A stretch of DNA of 32,804 nucleotides from Cyanobacteria bacterium SIG32. Its GTDB lineage: Bacteria; Cyanobacteriota; Vampirovibrionia; Gastranaerophilales; Gastranaerophilaceae. The stretch is from contig SUTY01000012.1 in assembly GCA_015152455.1 (NCBI GenBank), positions 1-32,804 of the forward strand. Direction: 5' to 3'. The notes beneath the pieces were generated by a model, which was given only the letters and a program-made list of their open reading frames with translations, made no database searches and was not told where the DNA came from. This document shows, in pieces, positions 1 to 32,804 of the stretch (positions are counted from its first letter, which is position 1; every line of letters starts with the position of its first letter). The translations under genes were made by a program, and so were the position numbers.

Positions 1-747
1 GGTAATGAAGTTGTTGACATGACAAAAGTTAAAACTGCTAAACACTTTGGACAAGATGAATGGGGTACAGAAATTATTGGTACACAATTTGCTAATGGTA
101 CTACTGCACTAATTGCATATAATCCTAAATGTTCTCAAGATCCTTATTCAAATACAATTACTGGTAGTGACTGTTTAGCTATTCTATACGATACAACAGG
201 ATACAAAACACCTAATACAAGTGGAAAAGATCTACGTGCAAATGGAAACGTACAATCACTTGGAGGATCATCTTGTGCTTTTGAAATAGACGGTACATGT
301 TTTGGTATGCCGTTCCAAGTTAATTCATATCATACTTGGAACGCTTGTAGTTCAAGATCATATACATCAACAGACGCAGAAGACCAAGCATACATGCAAA
401 AGTATGGACTTGACTACTGTTACCCAGGCTATGACTTTTTTGCAAAAGCAGCAGAAACATGCGGTGGCACATCTAAAATGGCACAGTTGTCAGATTTAGC
501 TACAATAGCTAATTATATTTATGGAAGAACAGACATTGATGAAAAAACAGACAACTATGACCTAACAATCTCAGTAGATCCAACTTCTCTAGGCTTTCCT
601 AGCCCTGATTTCTGGGTTTGGTCAGGCGAGGAGGATTCTACCATTAAGTACTACGCGTACGTCCGCTACTTCTACTCCGACTTTATGGTGTTGAACGACT
701 ACATCCGCGACGGCAGCGATGGGTGGGCGGTTTGCTTAGGTGATTAA
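1..747 (+). CDS. Pseudopilin-like surface protein, C-terminal part (5' end outside window), probable DGR target
   Basis: The reading frame is open from the first base, so this is the tail of a longer gene; an in-frame ATG at 19 is probably internal. The visible part is cysteine-rich and keeps the style of Gastranaerophilales prepilin-type proteins (WGTEIIGTQFANG, YNPKC, GSDCLAILYDT), ending in an aromatic-rich block with FWVWSGEE and a terminal AVCLGD. The overall shape, a conserved body plus a C-terminal W-rich segment, suits a C-type-lectin-like fold, but that is inference. Codons from about 649 to 717 differ sharply from the rest: 18 of 23 end in C and local GC is about 53%, against an AT-rich body. 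This is the pattern left by adenine mutagenesis of AAC-rich template codons. The gene starting at 32486 has the N-terminus expected for this family. A hairpin terminator follows at 812. Confidence 0.75.
   Translation, partial: GNEVVDMTKVKTAKHFGQDEWGTEIIGTQFANGTTALIAYNPKCSQDPYSNTITGSDCLAILYDTTGYKTPNTSGKDLRANGNVQSLGGSSCAFEIDGTCFGMPFQVNSYHTWNACSSRSYTSTDAEDQAYMQKYGLDYCYPGYDFFAKAAETCGGTSKMAQLSDLATIANYIYGRTDIDEKTDNYDLTISVDPTSLGFPSPDFWVWSGEEDSTIKYYAYVRYFYSDFMVLNDYIRDGSDGWAVCLGD
622..747 (+). other. Candidate DGR variable region (VR) at the 3' end of the target gene
   Basis: Seen: the last ~120 bases are GC-rich (64 of the 120 coding bases from 625) in an AT-rich gene, and codons 211-221 and 226-233 are almost all NNC: TAC repeatedly, plus GTC, CGC, TTC, TCC, GAC, ATC, GGC, AGC. 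All of these can arise from AAC by changes only at the two adenines. The conserved end GCGGTTTGCTTAGGTGAT would be the homology-initiation part. Known: DGR targets carry the VR at the C-terminus, often in C-type-lectin folds with aromatic and Asp/Ser/Asn variation. Not in the window: reverse transcriptase, template repeat or Avd gene. Confidence 0.6.
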
Positions 748-1168: not shown

Positions 1169-2248
1169 ATGTTTAATATAGTTGAATTTTTAAAACAAGC
1201 AGTATCAATCGGAGCTTCTGACGTGCATTTACATGTAGGCGATCACCCTGCAGTAAGACGTGATGGCCGAATTATAAAAATTGACATGCCTGTTCTGAGC
1301 GAACACGAAATTACCGACATCTGCAGAGAACTCGCACCTTTGCATCTTAAAAACGACATTTTGTCATTATTAGATGTTGATTTTTCTTATGAGATTAAAG
1401 GGATTTCTCGTTTCAGGGTAAATGTTTCCAGACAACTTGCACAATATGCAGTTGTAATAAGAACAATACCTTATCCGATTAAAAAAATCCCTGAATTACA
1501 CTTGCCTGATGCGATTAACCAATTCACAGAAATGGAAAACGGATTAGTTTTGGTTACTGGGCCTACAGGCTCTGGTAAATCAACTACATTAGCATCAATG
1601 CTTGATCATATTAATACTAATCAACAAAAACATATTATAACTATCGAAGATCCAGTTGAATTTATATTCCAAAATAAAAAATCAATTGTTTCACAAAGAC
1701 AGCTGCTAGTTGATACACCAACTTTTGCAGATGGTATTAAATATGCACTTCGTCAGGACCCTGACATCATATTTATCGGTGAAATCAGAGATCGAGAAAC
1801 TATGGCTAGTGCTTTAAAAGCAGCAGAAACAGGTCACTTGGTTTTTGCAACCATCCACACTAATAACGCAATCCAAACTGTTAACCGAATTATTAACATG
1901 TACACACCTGCAGACAGACCATTTGTGCGCTCTCAATTATCAGAAATCTTGAGAGGTACAATATCTCAAAAACTTGTGCCATTAGCAAAAGGGGTCGGCA
2001 GACGTCCTGCTTGTGAAATTCTTGTGGTTACTTCTACAATAAAAGATTTTATTGAAAAGAATGAACTTGAACAAATTTATGATTTGGTTAAAAAGGGATC
2101 ATTCAATCAAATGCTGACTCTCAACATGTCACTTTTTGAGATGTTGCAACAAGGCTTGATAACAGAAGATGCCGCTTTAACAGCATCTAGCAACAGAAAC
2201 GAACTACAACAAATGATTCGTGGTGTTTACCACGGAACTCGCGGTTAA
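1169..2248 (+). CDS. pilT: PilT-family type IV pilus retraction ATPase
   Basis: PilT is a hexameric cytoplasmic ATPase that drives depolymerisation and retraction of type IV pili. The 359-residue length fits the family. Visible motifs are the N-terminal PAS-like region with ASDVHLHVG, Walker A GPTGSGKST at 131-139, the Asp box IIxIEDPVEF, Walker B DPDIIFIGEIRD at 197-208, and the His box GHLVFATIHTNN. The C-terminal AIRNLIRE motif of classical PilT is only loosely represented, by QIYDLVKKG, so a PilT-like paralogue is possible. The ATG has a strong AAGGGGAG site and its own promoter. recO follows with no gap, so the two are probably cotranscribed. With the pseudopilin-like genes in this window it points to an active pilus system, although no pilB, pilC or pilQ is in view. 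Confidence 0.93.
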   Translation: MFNIVEFLKQAVSIGASDVHLHVGDHPAVRRDGRIIKIDMPVLSEHEITDICRELAPLHLKNDILSLLDVDFSYEIKGISRFRVNVSRQLAQYAVVIRTIPYPIKKIPELHLPDAINQFTEMENGLVLVTGPTGSGKSTTLASMLDHINTNQQKHIITIEDPVEFIFQNKKSIVSQRQLLVDTPTFADGIKYALRQDPDIIFIGEIRDRETMASALKAAETGHLVFATIHTNNAIQTVNRIINMYTPADRPFVRSQLSEILRGTISQKLVPLAKGVGRRPACEILVVTSTIKDFIEKNELEQIYDLVKKGSFNQMLTLNMSLFEMLQQGLITEDAALTASSNRNELQQMIRGVYHGTRG

Positions 2249-9629: not shown

Positions 9630-11342
9630 TTAATCATCTTGTTCTAATTTTTCAAGACGTTTATTTATAGCATTGATTTGCTCTTTTAATAATTTATTTT
9701 CTTCTTCAAGAACTTTCACCCTGTTATCAATTCCTGAAATTCTTGCAACAATAGTTTTCACTTCAGTAATTAAATTTTGAAGAATTTTATCAAGTTGCTT
9801 AACTGCATTCAATAGTGCATACTGGATACGTTCTTGTTTAACCACCAAGTATCCGTCGCCGTTTTTCTCAACCGCTTCAGGAAGAACCTTTTGAACTTCT
9901 TGAGCGATTACACCAACTCTGACAGTTTTATCTTTGTCGTCTTTGTATGTAAAGTATTTAGGAACAATATTTCGGATTTGTTCTAGACCGTTTTTGTATT
10001 CTTCTTTGATATTTTTAAGACGTTCATCTGAATACACAGTAATAGCTGATACACCAGAGATAATTCCAGTAGTAGAACTAGATCCTAAATAGACAACGTT
10101 GGTTGTAGTTGCGTCCGTAGCTGTCGGACCTGAACCAGCTCCAATACATGTTTTATTAGAACCTGTAACATAATAACAAGCCTTATTCCCTAAAGCTGAG
10201 TTATAATTTCCAGTAGAATTACTATACAAAGAATATACACCTATGCCAGCATTGTAACTTCCAGTTGTATTAGACATAAGAGCTCTATCACCAAAAGCAG
10301 CATTATTACCACCTGTTGTATTGTAATACAATGAATAAAATCCTGTAGCCGTATTATTACTACCAGAAGTCGCACTACCTAAAGCGTACATACCAGTTGC
10401 AGTATTTTGAAGACCTGTTTTCATAGAATACAAAGCATAGCGTCCAATAGCAGTATGTCCACTACCTGTTGTATTAGAAGCAAGTGCAGAATCTCCTACT
10501 GCAACATTTCGATAACCAGTTGTATTTGCCTTTAATGCTTCATATCCTATAGCTACATTGTTATAACCAGTTGTATTAGCTTTTAAAGAATTATAACCCA
10601 ATGTTGTGTTTTTCTCACCTGTACTAGAGCCACTAACACCCAGCATTGCATTTGCACCTATAGCTGTGTTGTAGCTACCAATATGATACTTCAAAGATTG
10701 ATAACCTAATGCGCTATTTTCTTGACCAGTAGTATTTGCATACATACTTGACATACCAACACCAGTATTGTACCTACCAGTCGTATTATTGTCTAAACTC
10801 CAATAGCCAAAAGCTGAATTACTTGAACCAGTAGTATTATCTCCAAGACTTGTGTGTCCCATCGCAGTATTACTTCCACCAGTTGTATTTTTCCATAATG
10901 CAAAAGCACCAAAAGCATTATTTCCACTGCCTGAAGTAAGAGATTCTAATGCACTAGAACCATGAGAATTATTAAAACCACTTGTTTCAGTTCTTGATTC
11001 AGAAACTTCACCCAAAAAAATACTTGAACCAGCAGCTCTTAAAGGGAAAGCAGCACCATTTTCATTATTTAACACTATATGGTCAGTTGAGCTATTAGGT
11101 ATTTGTATAACTAACTTTGCGTTCTCACCTTCTGCTTTTGTTTTTGTACCGATCATTGCGGTTTGAGAATTTGCCAAACCATAATATATATCACTATTAT
11201 TCGCCGCCCAACGCCAAGGATTTTCTATATCCACTGTTTTACGTTTTGTCATTATTGGTGCAAATGCCGCCAACATTACGGTCAAAATAAGCATTACAAC
11301 CATCATTTCGGCAAGTGTGAAAGCCTTAGAATTTCTTCTCAT
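9630..11342 (-). CDS. Prepilin-anchored fibre protein with head repeats and C-terminal S74 chaperone domain
   Basis: The 570-residue product has four parts. (1) A type III prepilin signal: MRRNSKA|FTLAE, with E at +5 and a hydrophobic helix to about residue 30. (2) A linker of about 110 residues. (3) About 16 repeats of roughly 17 residues (about 141-412), pattern NTAxGxxSLxxNTTGxx, resembling YadA-type trimeric head repeats. (4) A Peptidase_S74 intramolecular chaperone domain with S438-D439 in SDERLKNIKEEYKNG, the usual self-cleavage site, then VGVIAQEVQ and a C-terminal coiled coil (about 505-570). S74 domains are known from phage tail spikes, where they trimerise and cut themselves off. 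I chose ATG 11342 because GGGGGA lies 9 bases upstream; a TTG at 11351 sits too close to that site. Probable role: a trimeric surface fibre exported through a pilus or type II machine. Confidence 0.85.
   Translation of the reverse strand: MRRNSKAFTLAEMMVVMLILTVMLAAFAPIMTKRKTVDIENPWRWAANNSDIYYGLANSQTAMIGTKTKAEGENAKLVIQIPNSSTDHIVLNNENGAAFPLRAAGSSIFLGEVSESRTETSGFNNSHGSSALESLTSGSGNNAFGAFALWKNTTGGSNTAMGHTSLGDNTTGSSNSAFGYWSLDNNTTGRYNTGVGMSSMYANTTGQENSALGYQSLKYHIGSYNTAIGANAMLGVSGSSTGEKNTTLGYNSLKANTTGYNNVAIGYEALKANTTGYRNVAVGDSALASNTTGSGHTAIGRYALYSMKTGLQNTATGMYALGSATSGSNNTATGFYSLYYNTTGGNNAAFGDRALMSNTTGSYNAGIGVYSLYSNSTGNYNSALGNKACYYVTGSNKTCIGAGSGPTATDATTTNVVYLGSSSTTGIISGVSAITVYSDERLKNIKEEYKNGLEQIRNIVPKYFTYKDDKDKTVRVGVIAQEVQKVLPEAVEKNGDGYLVVKQERIQYALLNAVKQLDKILQNLITEVKTIVARISGIDNRVKVLEEENKLLKEQINAINKRLEKLEQDD
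10107..10922 (-). repeat. Tandem ~51-base coding repeats, about 16 units
   Basis: Each unit encodes about 17 residues with conserved Asn-x-Ala-x-Gly, Ser/Ala-Leu and Asn-Thr-Thr-Gly positions. Most units are 16-17 residues; one (GVSGSSTG region) is longer. The DNA sequences have diverged, so this is an old array held by protein selection rather than a recent expansion. Confidence 0.85.
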
Positions 11343-11362
11343 ATTTAACAATCCCCCATGTG

Positions 11363-12913: not shown

Positions 12914-14710
12914 ATGAGTTCAAATGAAAATATAAGAAATATAGCTATTATTGCACACGTAGATCACGGTAAAACAACTATGGTTGATTGTTTATTAAAG
13001 CAAGCTGGTGCATTTAGAGAGAATCAGCACGTCGAAGAACGAGTTTTAGATAGTAATGATTTGGAAAGAGAAAGAGGGATTACAATTCTTTCCAAAAACA
13101 TTTCTATCAATTATAAAGGCACAAAAATCAATGTTGTTGATACACCAGGTCACGCTGATTTTGGTGGCGAAGTTGAACGCGTATTGGGTATGGTTGATGG
13201 CGCATTATTAATTGTTGACGCCGCTGAAGGTCCAATGCCTCAAACTCGTTTTGTGTTATCAAAAGCTCTTGAATTAGGATTAAAAATAATTGTTGTAGTT
13301 AATAAAATTGACAAGCCAGCAGGAGAGCCTTTAACAGCTCTAGACAAGGTATTTGACTTATTTACAGAATTAACCGACCGAGAAGATTTAATAGATTTTC
13401 CATTCATATTTGCAAGTAGCTTAAATGGATTTGCTATAAAAGATTTGGATGACGAAAGAAAAGATATGATTCCTCTATTAGATTGTATTATGGAAAATAT
13501 CAAAGCCCCTGAATGTGATGATACAAAACCGTTACAGTTTAGGGCTACATCATTAGATTATAACGAATACGTCGGACGTATAGTTATTGGTAAAATCGCA
13601 AACGGAAAAGTAAAATCACAAGAACAAGTATGTGTTGTTCACGCTGACGGTTCTCAAGAACGTGGTAAAATCACAAAACTATTTGGTTTTAAAGACCTTG
13701 GAAGAGTAGAAATTGAAGAAGCATCTGCTGGTGATATTGTTGGGATTGCAGGATTTTCAGAAATTCAAATTGGAGAAAGTATTTGTGATTTGAATAATCC
13801 AAATCCATTACCTTTAATTCAGGTTGATGAGCCCACTTTACAAATGAATTTTTCAGTAAATGACAGTCCTTTTGCCGGTACTGAGGGTAAATTCGTTACT
13901 TCACGTCAAATCAGAAAACGTCTTTACAATGAATTAGAAAAAAATGTGAGTTTGAAAGTAGAAGATACAGATTCTACTGATGTATTCAAAGTTTCAGGTC
14001 GTGGTGAATTACACTTAGGTATTTTGATTGAAACAATGCGTCGTGAAGGTTATGAATTTGCCGTATCAAAACCTGAGGTTATTTATAAAGAAATTAATGG
14101 CGTACATTCTGAACCTTATGAAAATTTAATAGTAGATGTTCCTGAAGAATACGCTGGCGGAAGTATTGAAAGACTTGCAGGGCGCAAAGGTGAAATGCAG
14201 GAAATGCAAAATGCTAAAGGTCGTACAACTATGACATTCCACATTCCTGCTCGTGGACTTATAGGTTTTAGAAGTGAATTTATAAGAATGACTCGTGGTG
14301 AAGGAATTATGTATCATACATTCTTGGAATACAGACCTTATGCAGGCGACATTCCTCGTCAACGTAACGGTTCAATTATTGCCCACGAACAAGGTGAAGC
14401 TATTCCTTACGCATTAGCTCAATATGAAGATAGAGGTGTATTTTTCATCACACCAAAAACAAAAGTATATCGAGGTATGATTATCGGTGAATGTAATAAA
14501 CCTCAAGATATTGTTGTTAACATCTGTAAGACTAAAAAACTAACAAACATGAGAAGTGCCACAGCAGATGTGATGGTAACACTTCAAGCGCATAGACAAA
14601 TGGCATTGGAAGAATGCTTGGAATATATTTCAGATGACGAGTTGGTAGAAATTACCCCAGAAAATGTCAGAATTAGAAAAGCAGATTTAAACAAAAAAAT
14701 ATACAACTAG
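12914..14710 (+). CDS. typA: Ribosome-associated translational GTPase TypA/BipA
   Basis: TypA (BipA) is an EF-G-like GTPase that binds the ribosome and helps 50S assembly and growth under stress such as cold. The 598 residues match the family. G1 is AHVDHGKTT (14-22), the switch I region has RERGITI, G3 is DTPGHADF, and G4 is NKIDKP. A translation-factor domain II, an EF-G C-like domain and the BipA-specific C-terminal domain (ending with MRSATADVMVTLQ and ALEECLEYI) follow. AAGGGGA precedes the ATG. The gene is monocistronic, with promoter at 12852 and terminator at 14716. Confidence 0.97.
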   Translation: MSSNENIRNIAIIAHVDHGKTTMVDCLLKQAGAFRENQHVEERVLDSNDLERERGITILSKNISINYKGTKINVVDTPGHADFGGEVERVLGMVDGALLIVDAAEGPMPQTRFVLSKALELGLKIIVVVNKIDKPAGEPLTALDKVFDLFTELTDREDLIDFPFIFASSLNGFAIKDLDDERKDMIPLLDCIMENIKAPECDDTKPLQFRATSLDYNEYVGRIVIGKIANGKVKSQEQVCVVHADGSQERGKITKLFGFKDLGRVEIEEASAGDIVGIAGFSEIQIGESICDLNNPNPLPLIQVDEPTLQMNFSVNDSPFAGTEGKFVTSRQIRKRLYNELEKNVSLKVEDTDSTDVFKVSGRGELHLGILIETMRREGYEFAVSKPEVIYKEINGVHSEPYENLIVDVPEEYAGGSIERLAGRKGEMQEMQNAKGRTTMTFHIPARGLIGFRSEFIRMTRGEGIMYHTFLEYRPYAGDIPRQRNGSIIAHEQGEAIPYALAQYEDRGVFFITPKTKVYRGMIIGECNKPQDIVVNICKTKKLTNMRSATADVMVTLQAHRQMALEECLEYISDDELVEITPENVRIRKADLNKKIYN

Positions 14711-14715
14711 AATTT

Positions 14716-14740
14716 GAGGCTCTTTTGAGCCTCTTTTTTA
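14716..14740 (+). terminator. Intrinsic terminator after typA
   Basis: GAGGCTC (14716-14722) pairs with GAGCCTC (14727-14733) around a TTTT loop and is followed by six T. The mgtE -10 box begins 17 bases later. Confidence 0.9.
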
Positions 14741-14756
14741 ATTTTTATATTTGTAA

Positions 14757-14762
14757 TATAAT
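14757..14762 (+). promoter_or_regulatory. -10 box of mgtE, apparently leaderless
   Basis: TATAAT ends 6 bases before ATG 14769 and there is no Shine-Dalgarno sequence. The context TTGTAATATAAT is identical to that before mnmG on the other strand (30122-30127). The -35 region overlaps the typA terminator T-run and is poor. Confidence 0.55.
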
Positions 14763-14768
14763 CTTATT

Positions 14769-16139
14769 ATGATCAATATTACAAACATAGTTGACAGATT
14801 CCGCGAAATGATGACTGATGAAACCATTGATCAATTAAAAGAAGAATTGAACAACTATCACGTCGCGGATATCGCAGATATATTTCTAGAAATGAAACCT
14901 GAAGAACGCCTTCAGTGCTTTAAGTTGCTGGATTTAGAAAAAGCTGCGGATTTGATGGAATATTTAACACCTCAGCTTCAAGTTGAATTATTAGGTGATA
15001 TTGATGAAGAAGTCGCATCAAAAATCATTACTAAGTTACCACACGACGCCGCTGCGGACGTTTTGGGGGATATGGAAGATGATGAAAGCGAAACTTATTT
15101 AGATCGTTTGCCACACAAGTTTTCAGCCGAAGTCAGAGAACTTTTAACATATAACGAAGATACCGCAGGTGGTATTATGAACCCTTCTGTTTTGACTGTA
15201 AATTCTGATATGACGGTACAAGATGTATTAAATCACATTAGAATTAAAGCAGAACAAGATAACATGGAATTGTATTATATTTATGTTGTTGACAAACAAA
15301 ATCACTTATTGGGCGTTGTTTCTTTACGTAGTTTGATGACATCTCCAATTACAAAAAAAATAGAAGATATAATGATTTCTGATATAGTAAAACTTCACGT
15401 TGACGATTATCAGGATTATATTGCTGATGTATTCATGAAATATCAGTACAATGCGCTTCCTGTCGTTGATTTATACAACAGACTTAAAGGTATGATTACC
15501 TGGGACGACGTTCAAGATATCGTTGAAGAAGAAACTACCGAAACAATCTACCAATCTTCAGGTATTGCGACAGAATTGGTTGATGAAGACGAAATTCTTT
15601 CTGGTAATATTTTTAACGCAATAAAAGCAAGAACTCCTTGGTTATTCATAACATTAATTGGAGAATTTATTGCGGTAAATGTTGCTCATCATTTTGATGA
15701 AACACTATCAGCCTTACCGATAGTAGCTATATTTATGCCATTATTGGCAGGTTTGGGTGGTAATATTGGGACTCAAAGTATCACTTTGATGGTACGTGGT
15801 TTATCGACTGGACAAGTTACTTTAAGCTCAGCTATGTATCACATTATTCGTGAAATGGCAATTGGATTGTGTATAGGCTTATTCTTTGGTGCAATGACAA
15901 CTCTGGTCACTTGGGGCTGGCAACACAATGTAGAATTGGGAATTGTTGTAGGTATAGCAATGACAATTAATATGACTATGGCTACAATAATTGGTACCTT
16001 CACACCTTTTGCTCTAAAAACAGTTAATATTGATCCTGCAGTAGCGTCAGGTCCAGTAATTGCAACCACAATTGACGTTATTGGATTGGCAGTTTACTTT
16101 ACTCTCGTTTCAACATTTTTGTTGAACGTAATACAATAG
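14769..16139 (+). CDS. mgtE: Magnesium transporter MgtE
   Basis: MgtE is a dimeric Mg2+ channel/transporter gated by intracellular Mg2+ through its cytoplasmic domains. The 456 residues show the acidic MgtE N-domain of helical repeats (about 1-130), two CBS domains (about 140-255, with VVDKQNHLLGVVSL and ALPVVDLYNRLKGMITWDD), and a C-terminal membrane domain of five helices. The family motif GGNIGTQS lies before the pore helices. No M-box riboswitch is possible: only 28 bases separate the typA terminator T-run from the ATG, and the -10 box fills part of that. The mRNA appears leaderless. The LCP-family gene starts 18 bases downstream and is probably cotranscribed. Confidence 0.95.
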   Translation: MINITNIVDRFREMMTDETIDQLKEELNNYHVADIADIFLEMKPEERLQCFKLLDLEKAADLMEYLTPQLQVELLGDIDEEVASKIITKLPHDAAADVLGDMEDDESETYLDRLPHKFSAEVRELLTYNEDTAGGIMNPSVLTVNSDMTVQDVLNHIRIKAEQDNMELYYIYVVDKQNHLLGVVSLRSLMTSPITKKIEDIMISDIVKLHVDDYQDYIADVFMKYQYNALPVVDLYNRLKGMITWDDVQDIVEEETTETIYQSSGIATELVDEDEILSGNIFNAIKARTPWLFITLIGEFIAVNVAHHFDETLSALPIVAIFMPLLAGLGGNIGTQSITLMVRGLSTGQVTLSSAMYHIIREMAIGLCIGLFFGAMTTLVTWGWQHNVELGIVVGIAMTINMTMATIIGTFTPFALKTVNIDPAVASGPVIATTIDVIGLAVYFTLVSTFLLNVIQ

Positions 16140-32485: not shown

Positions 32486-32804
32486 ATGAAAAACCCAGTA
32501 AAAAACTTGATCACTTGGTCACCTAGTCACTTGATCACTTCACAAAAATCCGCATTTACTTTAGCTGAAGTCCTAATCACCTTAGCAATTATTGGCGTGG
32601 TTGCTGCAATGACAATACCAACTCTTGTTGCAAATTACCAAGAAAAATCTTGGGGTACTGCAGCTACTGTTTTTGAAAGAAAACTAACTGAAGCATTAAA
32701 AGTTATGAACGTTCAAGGAACTTTGGCTGGTTACCAAACTACTGAGAGTTTTGTGGAAGAATTAAGTAAGCACTTCAAAACAACTAAAATATGTGCTAAC
32801 GATA
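32486..32804 (+). CDS. Pseudopilin-like protein, N-terminal part (runs off window end)
   Basis: ATG 32486 has AAGGA 8 bases upstream. The first 23 residues (MKNPVKN, ITWSPSHLITSQKSA) form the prepilin leader; cleavage is expected between A23 and F24 in SA|FTLAEVLI. A typical pilin helix (LAIIGVVAAMTIPTLVANY) follows, then a soluble domain (KSWGTAATVFERKLTEALKVM). E at +5 is present, and the residue before the cut is Ala rather than the usual Gly. The family matches the C-terminal fragment at the window start, so the product is likely a surface protein exported by a type II or type IV pilus-like system. Most of the leader is encoded by a TGATCA-rich repeat also found at 20022 and, inverted, at 31967. 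The window ends in codon 107. Confidence 0.85.
   Translation, partial: MKNPVKNLITWSPSHLITSQKSAFTLAEVLITLAIIGVVAAMTIPTLVANYQEKSWGTAATVFERKLTEALKVMNVQGTLAGYQTTESFVEELSKHFKTTKICAND
32505..32543 (+). repeat. TGATCA-rich dispersed repeat, copy inside the prepilin leader
   Basis: Two TTGATCAC units and one TTGGTCAC unit, the reverse complement of 31967-32004. It encodes leader residues of about 7-20 (LITWSPSHLITS). The repeat lies wholly before the predicted prepilin cleavage site. Confidence 0.8.

Follow-up and report, generated by a model that had tools for sequence, protein, structure and literature searches.

At least 22 prepilin-like genes as probable targets of a cellular DGR in the genome of Cyanobacteria bacterium SIG32

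What has altered the 3' end of the first gene of this locus, and with which machinery, is the question raised by the 32,804-nucleotide stretch of DNA analysed here (the window), which is contig C41 of a 1.71-Mb genome assembled into 98 contigs and about 90% complete. The gene occupies positions 1–747 of the forward strand and was assigned as a type IV prepilin-like target of a diversity-generating retroelement (DGR) from the ORF list, the family alignment and the N_methyl domain of full-length members. Its 5' end is removed by the start of the contig, leaving 248 visible residues, while the mature full-length paralogues have approximately 339–368 residues. An exact recount of the codons at 649–717 resulted in 18 C-ending codons out of 23, as claimed in the initial annotation; with 13% of C-ending codons among the 207 upstream codons of the same ORF, the binomial P of this value was ~2e-12. 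The GC contents of 1–621, 622–747 and 649–717 were determined to be 0.369, 0.516 and 0.536, respectively, and the ~53% GC reported earlier for the gene end thus holds for 649–717, the value of 622–747 being nearer to 52%. By raw count of C at the third codon position (C3), 649–717 is the top 23-codon stretch in the 32.8-kb window. Because counts of 16–17 out of 23 are reached by a few other stretches of the same window, the C3 bias alone is suggestive, not decisive. On sequence grounds, the proof of a variable repeat (VR) in the window gene is the comparison of paralogues, not the composition.

The DNA search of the genome with the window 3' end revealed many further copies, the translations of which have long conserved stretches common to all and differing 3' ends. 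With the family profile, 87 matches were obtained in the genome, 33 of them above 200 bits. VR-type 3' ends were detected in at least 22 genes (the window copy and 21 others), which fall into three classes. Class 1 (n = 8) consists of the genes on C41 (window), C92, C49, C95, C83, the end of C29, C58 and C48; class 2 (n = 6) of those on C84, C53, C59, C74, C88 and C40, C59 and C74 being placed there by alignment only; and class 3 (n = 8) of those on C66, C36, the start of C29, C60, C91, C17, C69 and the start of C49. The VR class of C33 was ambiguous. Because the assembly is fragmented, the target counts are minimum values; a few of the genes, short and located at contig ends, are represented by partial sequence. 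The action on several paralogues, suggested from the window sequence, is in line with this number of VR-bearing genes. One more pilin-family copy, an N-terminal part cut by the contig end, was found in the ORF list at 32486–32803 of the forward strand (family match C41:32555–32803); its 3' end falls outside the window.

In the VR genes for which it was computed, the GC3 was 0.57–0.80 in the last 40 codons versus 0.15–0.25 upstream. C47, C56 and other paralogues have the homologous domain without a VR and retain AT-rich codons (GC3 0.15–0.33); they are an internal control. The rise of GC and C3 at the 3' end of the gene would also fit with an ordinary shift in codon usage, with a surface loop under positive selection or with a newly acquired GC-rich domain. 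However, the non-VR paralogues stay AT-rich, and the third positions of the VR codons are fixed while the first and second positions vary. In sister species, moreover, an A-rich non-coding template that matches the VR is located next to the RT and Avd genes, and by this match these explanations are in practice refuted.

The class 1 VR of the window gene was mapped to 609–747 (forward strand) by alignment with 14 paralogues and three sister-species template repeats (TRs), supported by a TR-like match in the sister species. Within it, the adenine-directed hypervariable core extends over 634–722, as judged from the variable columns on the adenines of the TR of sister species G014 and from their distribution over codon positions. 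The core is followed by a constant 3' end at 724–747, TGGGCGGTTTGCTTAGGTGATTAA, which did not vary among the seven class 1 VRs that were compared and is situated at the place of the IMH; the corresponding end of the G014 C19 TR is GGTAATGA. By the precedent of BPP-1, this constant end may act as the IMH. The hypervariable segment had originally been set at 622–747; its core is real and its bounds are shifted, since the variation among the paralogues runs from ~634 to ~722 and 724–747 is constant.

The seven ungapped class 1 VRs had 46 variable columns, of which 21, 22 and 3 were at codon positions 1, 2 and 3, respectively. In comparison with the G014 TR, 33 of the 46 A columns were variable versus 12 of the 76 non-A columns (Fisher p = 6e-10), and the variable columns of class 2 compared with the adenines of a sister-species TR gave p = 4e-11. 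The minority of class 1 variable columns lying off the sister-TR adenines (12 of 45) is expected if the TR of the present genome differs from that of the sister species. Pairs of copies differed in 20–26 of 96 bases in the VR versus 3–5 of 106 bases in the adjacent upstream flank, indicating that the mutations are targeted and, compared with the flanks, recent; this difference suggests recent retrohoming activity. Gene conversion or recombination among the pilin paralogues, i.e., a silent-cassette-like antigenic variation without a retroelement, could draw on numerous homologous pilin-like genes whose N-terminal parts are nearly identical. Yet the shuffling of blocks predicts neither an adenine bias nor a bias towards codon positions 1 and 2, and the observed TR-adenine bias, the distribution over codon positions and the restriction of the altered codon usage to the VR render such an origin highly improbable.

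Two reverse transcriptases (RTs) were found in the genome. The first one, encoded at C80:14486–15604, is an uninterrupted ORF of 372 aa with the motifs GLPIGNLTSQ (the DGR form, IGNLTSQ) and YVDD. Its top PDB sequence match was 8ub7 (E = 1.4e-35), which we take to be the Bordetella DGR RT (bRT), and group II RTs followed at 4e-14; the match with phrog_1423 had an E value of 4e-98. Judging from these matches, the C80 RT can be assigned to the DGR clade. The genome search therefore located on C80 the DGR RT that had been expected outside the window, and with it and the adenine-directed pattern the proposed DGR footprint at the 3' end of the window gene stands. Neither a TR nor an Avd gene was found beside the C80 RT in its 16-kb contig, an A-tolerant scan included. 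The RT gene is preceded by a gene reading as a lytic transglycosylase, and a toxin-antitoxin-like pair (Gp49-type and HTH addiction-module antidote; L009:2440–3092, reverse strand) is situated directly downstream of this lone RT.

A 69-residue C-terminal piece of a bAvd protein, encoded by the 3' part of avd, was detected at the start of contig C5, where the contig boundary truncates the gene. The truncated piece matched with E = 4e-9 and 37.4 bits against the Pfam cut-off of 40. As a separate observation, a repeated element of ~130 bases (CCACCCACCCCCAGCCCCTCCC ... GGTGGGTGG) adjoins both the RT and the avd fragment, its copies being located at L011:16317–16446 and at L093:210–345 and 745–870. 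The second RT is part of a phage-type DGR on C9 (L010:1129–2837, corresponding to about 13856–15564 of G000:C9), with the TR at 2411–2528 and the VR at 2720–2837 in L010 coordinates and with 12 of 12 TR/VR mismatches at adenines. This prophage-type DGR was rejected as the template of the pilin VRs, as its TR is unlike them and pairs with its own adjacent VR.

Complete loci were found in sister species. G014, which is about 99% complete, has two loci, on C19 and C8, each with an RT, an Avd and a TR. The search of G014 with its own two TRs resulted in 19 and 10 target genes, respectively (29 in all), spread over many contigs. In the case of the C19 TR, 254 of 308 VR mismatches were at TR adenines, which constitute 36% of the template (ungapped alignment, limited to VRs having no more than 6 non-A mismatches); in the case of the C8 TR, the corresponding values were 124 of 144 (ungapped) and 28%. 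In this mismatch table, the row of the VR adjoining the C19 TR is an alignment of the TR with itself; the actual VR had 15 of 15 mismatches at adenines. In G003, the TR is situated just upstream of the RT. The sister-species templates are A-rich, non-coding and next to the RT and Avd genes. The adenine-directed change proposed for the window gene agrees with these counts as well as with the Fisher p value given above.

Among 40 genomes, bAvd scored above the cut-off in four (G003, G014, G024 and G032), and a strong match to the C80 RT was present in all four of them; the avd fragment of the present genome, being just under the cut-off, is not counted here. The pilin-like family had at least 23–54 matches in each sampled member of the genus, with the RT present or absent. 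Since the family is large also without the RT, the DGR appears to have taken over a part of an older, pre-existing expansion of the pilin family. The GTDB contig scan, which may omit near-identical records, returned no relatives with the pilin query and one MAG with a lone RT, RUG13924, with the RT query.

Besides the RT, a template matching 649–747 had been sought in the rest of the genome. With the adenine-restored consensus sequences of classes 1 and 3 and a sister TR as queries, no such TR was detected in the assembly (98 contigs, 90% complete). Weak matches to the class 3 consensus at C45:22611 and C2:2413 were rejected as TRs, as they look like glutamine-rich coding repeats. The simplest account would be that the TR was dropped at a repeat-caused assembly break, because the contig breaks hit the pilin repeat family, including both ends of the window, and avd, where the TR would be lost: on G014:C8 the TR lies directly upstream of avd, and in the present genome the contig is broken inside avd.

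The absence of a TR from the assembly would also be in accordance with the VRs being relics of an inactive DGR, with the RT and Avd kept and the TR lost. Comparable relics have been reported in some Treponema denticola isolates, which retain target genes but neither RT nor TR (PMC4891356), and in G004, G009 and G010 VR-like matches were present with no RT match. In contrast, the C80 RT is an uninterrupted ORF with its catalytic motifs, the VRs differ strongly between copies with near-identical adjacent flanks, and the assembly breaks are located where a TR would vanish. A relic state is thus considered unlikely, though less so than gene conversion, and a functional DGR is preferred. The C80 RT matched the RT of G014:C8 at 59% and that of G014:C19 at 50%, but it is the TR of G014:C19 to which the class 1 VRs are similar; the RT–TR pairing in the present genome is therefore ambiguous. 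The assembly may also lack a second RT, lost at the breaks like the TR.

As to the nature of the target proteins, C34 and G014:C19, both of full length, scored above the cut-off of N_methyl (PF07963), and the prepilin N-terminus FTLAEVLITLAIIG opens other full-length family copies. The window copy is truncated before that point, and its pseudopilin-like character, stated in the initial annotation, is visible in the full-length paralogues and not in the copy itself. The AlphaFold2 model of the C49 paralogue was of moderate quality (mean pLDDT 65), the C-terminal domain being its best part. With this model, Foldseek gave no match at E <= 0.001, and VIA-align of the model residues 182–343 gave C-type-lectin-like chains at Z 4.7–8.3, including intimin, the Bd2740 fibre domain (Bdellovibrio, 8oks) and the Treponema DGR target TvpA (2y3c). 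The C-terminal VR-bearing domain is accordingly predicted, on the basis of VIA-align, to have a C-type-lectin-like fold; transferred from the C49 paralogue to the window copy, its bounds are 259–744 (forward strand), enclosing the VR. Class 3 had a weak match to Lcl_C, below the cut-off; DUF1566 (Lcl_C) is a frequent DGR target domain (PMC6642488). The target proteins would be displayed on the surface and would bind ligands.

The window target gene is followed by a gene of a PilT-like type II/IV secretion ATPase (1169–2248, forward strand; T2SSE PF00437, E = 1.3e-48), which belongs to the context and is not a part of the DGR. At 9630–11351 (reverse strand), the window also encodes a 573-aa protein, which has a prepilin motif at its N-terminus (N_methyl, E = 1e-6), contains numerous NTTGxxN-like repeats and ends in a Peptidase_S74 chaperone domain (E = 7.5e-14). 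It thus combines a pilin signal with a self-processing end of the tailspike type. An AT-rich inverted repeat, AAAATGGTAAACCATTTT, was detected right after the stop codon of eight VR genes (L014, L015, L016, L018, L019, L020, L185 and L186), among which each of the three classes is represented. Being similar in position, it was tried as a target hairpin of the BPP-1 type (PMC3240598) and rejected; because it is also present after the non-VR C56 (L021) and missing at the window copy, it was kept out of the evidence.

According to these results, it is very probable that a cellular DGR with the C80 RT and Avd rewrites at least 22 prepilin-like genes, including the VR at 609–747 of the window. RNA from the genome's own TR would be reverse transcribed by the C80 RT with its Avd partner (C5), bases would be misinserted opposite the template adenines, and the 3' end of a target gene would be exchanged for the cDNA. 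At least 22 unlinked genes, distributed over the three VR classes, would be written by this machinery, and more than one TR is probably involved. The random residues would land in the C-terminal lectin-like domain of the type IV prepilin-like proteins, which would give the cell a changing array of binding proteins displayed via the pilus or a type II export system. The mechanism as such is already known and common to all DGRs. With a slight preference over the contrary, we favour the broader proposal that in this 1.7-Mb genome more than 20 unlinked, prepilin-exported, hypervariable lectin-like proteins are rewritten in trans by few RT/TR units, the RT maybe being apart from Avd and the TR, and that combinatorial surface recognition is the outcome.

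In comparison with known systems, the TvpA-type DGR of T. denticola is similar in being chromosomal and in having lectin-fold surface targets, several of them far from the RT–TR core. The remote targets there number 2–7 per isolate and are described as lipoproteins (PMC4891356), whereas at least 22 prepilin-like targets were found here and 29 targets in sister G014. Thiohalocapsa PB-PSB1, with nine DGR loci and 15 targets termed exceptional, resembles the present genome in the large number of its chromosomal DGR targets, part of which are probably diversified in trans (PMC10907252). The targets of PB-PSB1 are tied to putative immune sensors, while the present ones are more numerous, belong to one pilin-like family and are probably served by few RT/TR loci. 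In Bacteroides, a gut bacterium, DGRs are reported to diversify type V pili at their tip pilins (Macadangdang et al. 2024, as cited in the review PMC12632263). A pilus protein is thus diversified by a DGR in both cases, but the type V pili are lipoprotein-derived, and here numerous targets have the type IV prepilin motif. The DGR of Bordetella phage BPP-1 (Mtd, bRT, Avd) shares with the present one the RT homology, an accessory protein of the bAvd family, the adenine-directed transfer from TR to VR and the C-type lectin fold in the target; in contrast, it is phage-borne and has one adjacent target. As DGRs with dozens of TR–VR pairs exist according to a survey (PMC6642488), an absolute record in target number is not claimed. 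The literature search found no paper joining DGRs with Melainabacteria or Gastranaerophilales.

The standout feature is the scale, 22–29 exported, unlinked targets per genome compared with 15 in PB-PSB1 (PMC10907252). If true, the number of targets would exceed that of the chromosomal DGR repertoires for which the compared papers give a detailed description, and a known mutagenic machine would now be tied to an expanded pilin-like family. It is predicted that one RNA template keeps about 10–20 scattered surface genes in flux together. The approximately 50 VRs over the two related genomes constitute a natural set for studying the mutation spectrum and the constraint of the lectin-like fold. Two questions become testable: how retrohoming locates many unlinked targets, and whether the diversified pilin-like proteins track changing partners, phages or surfaces.
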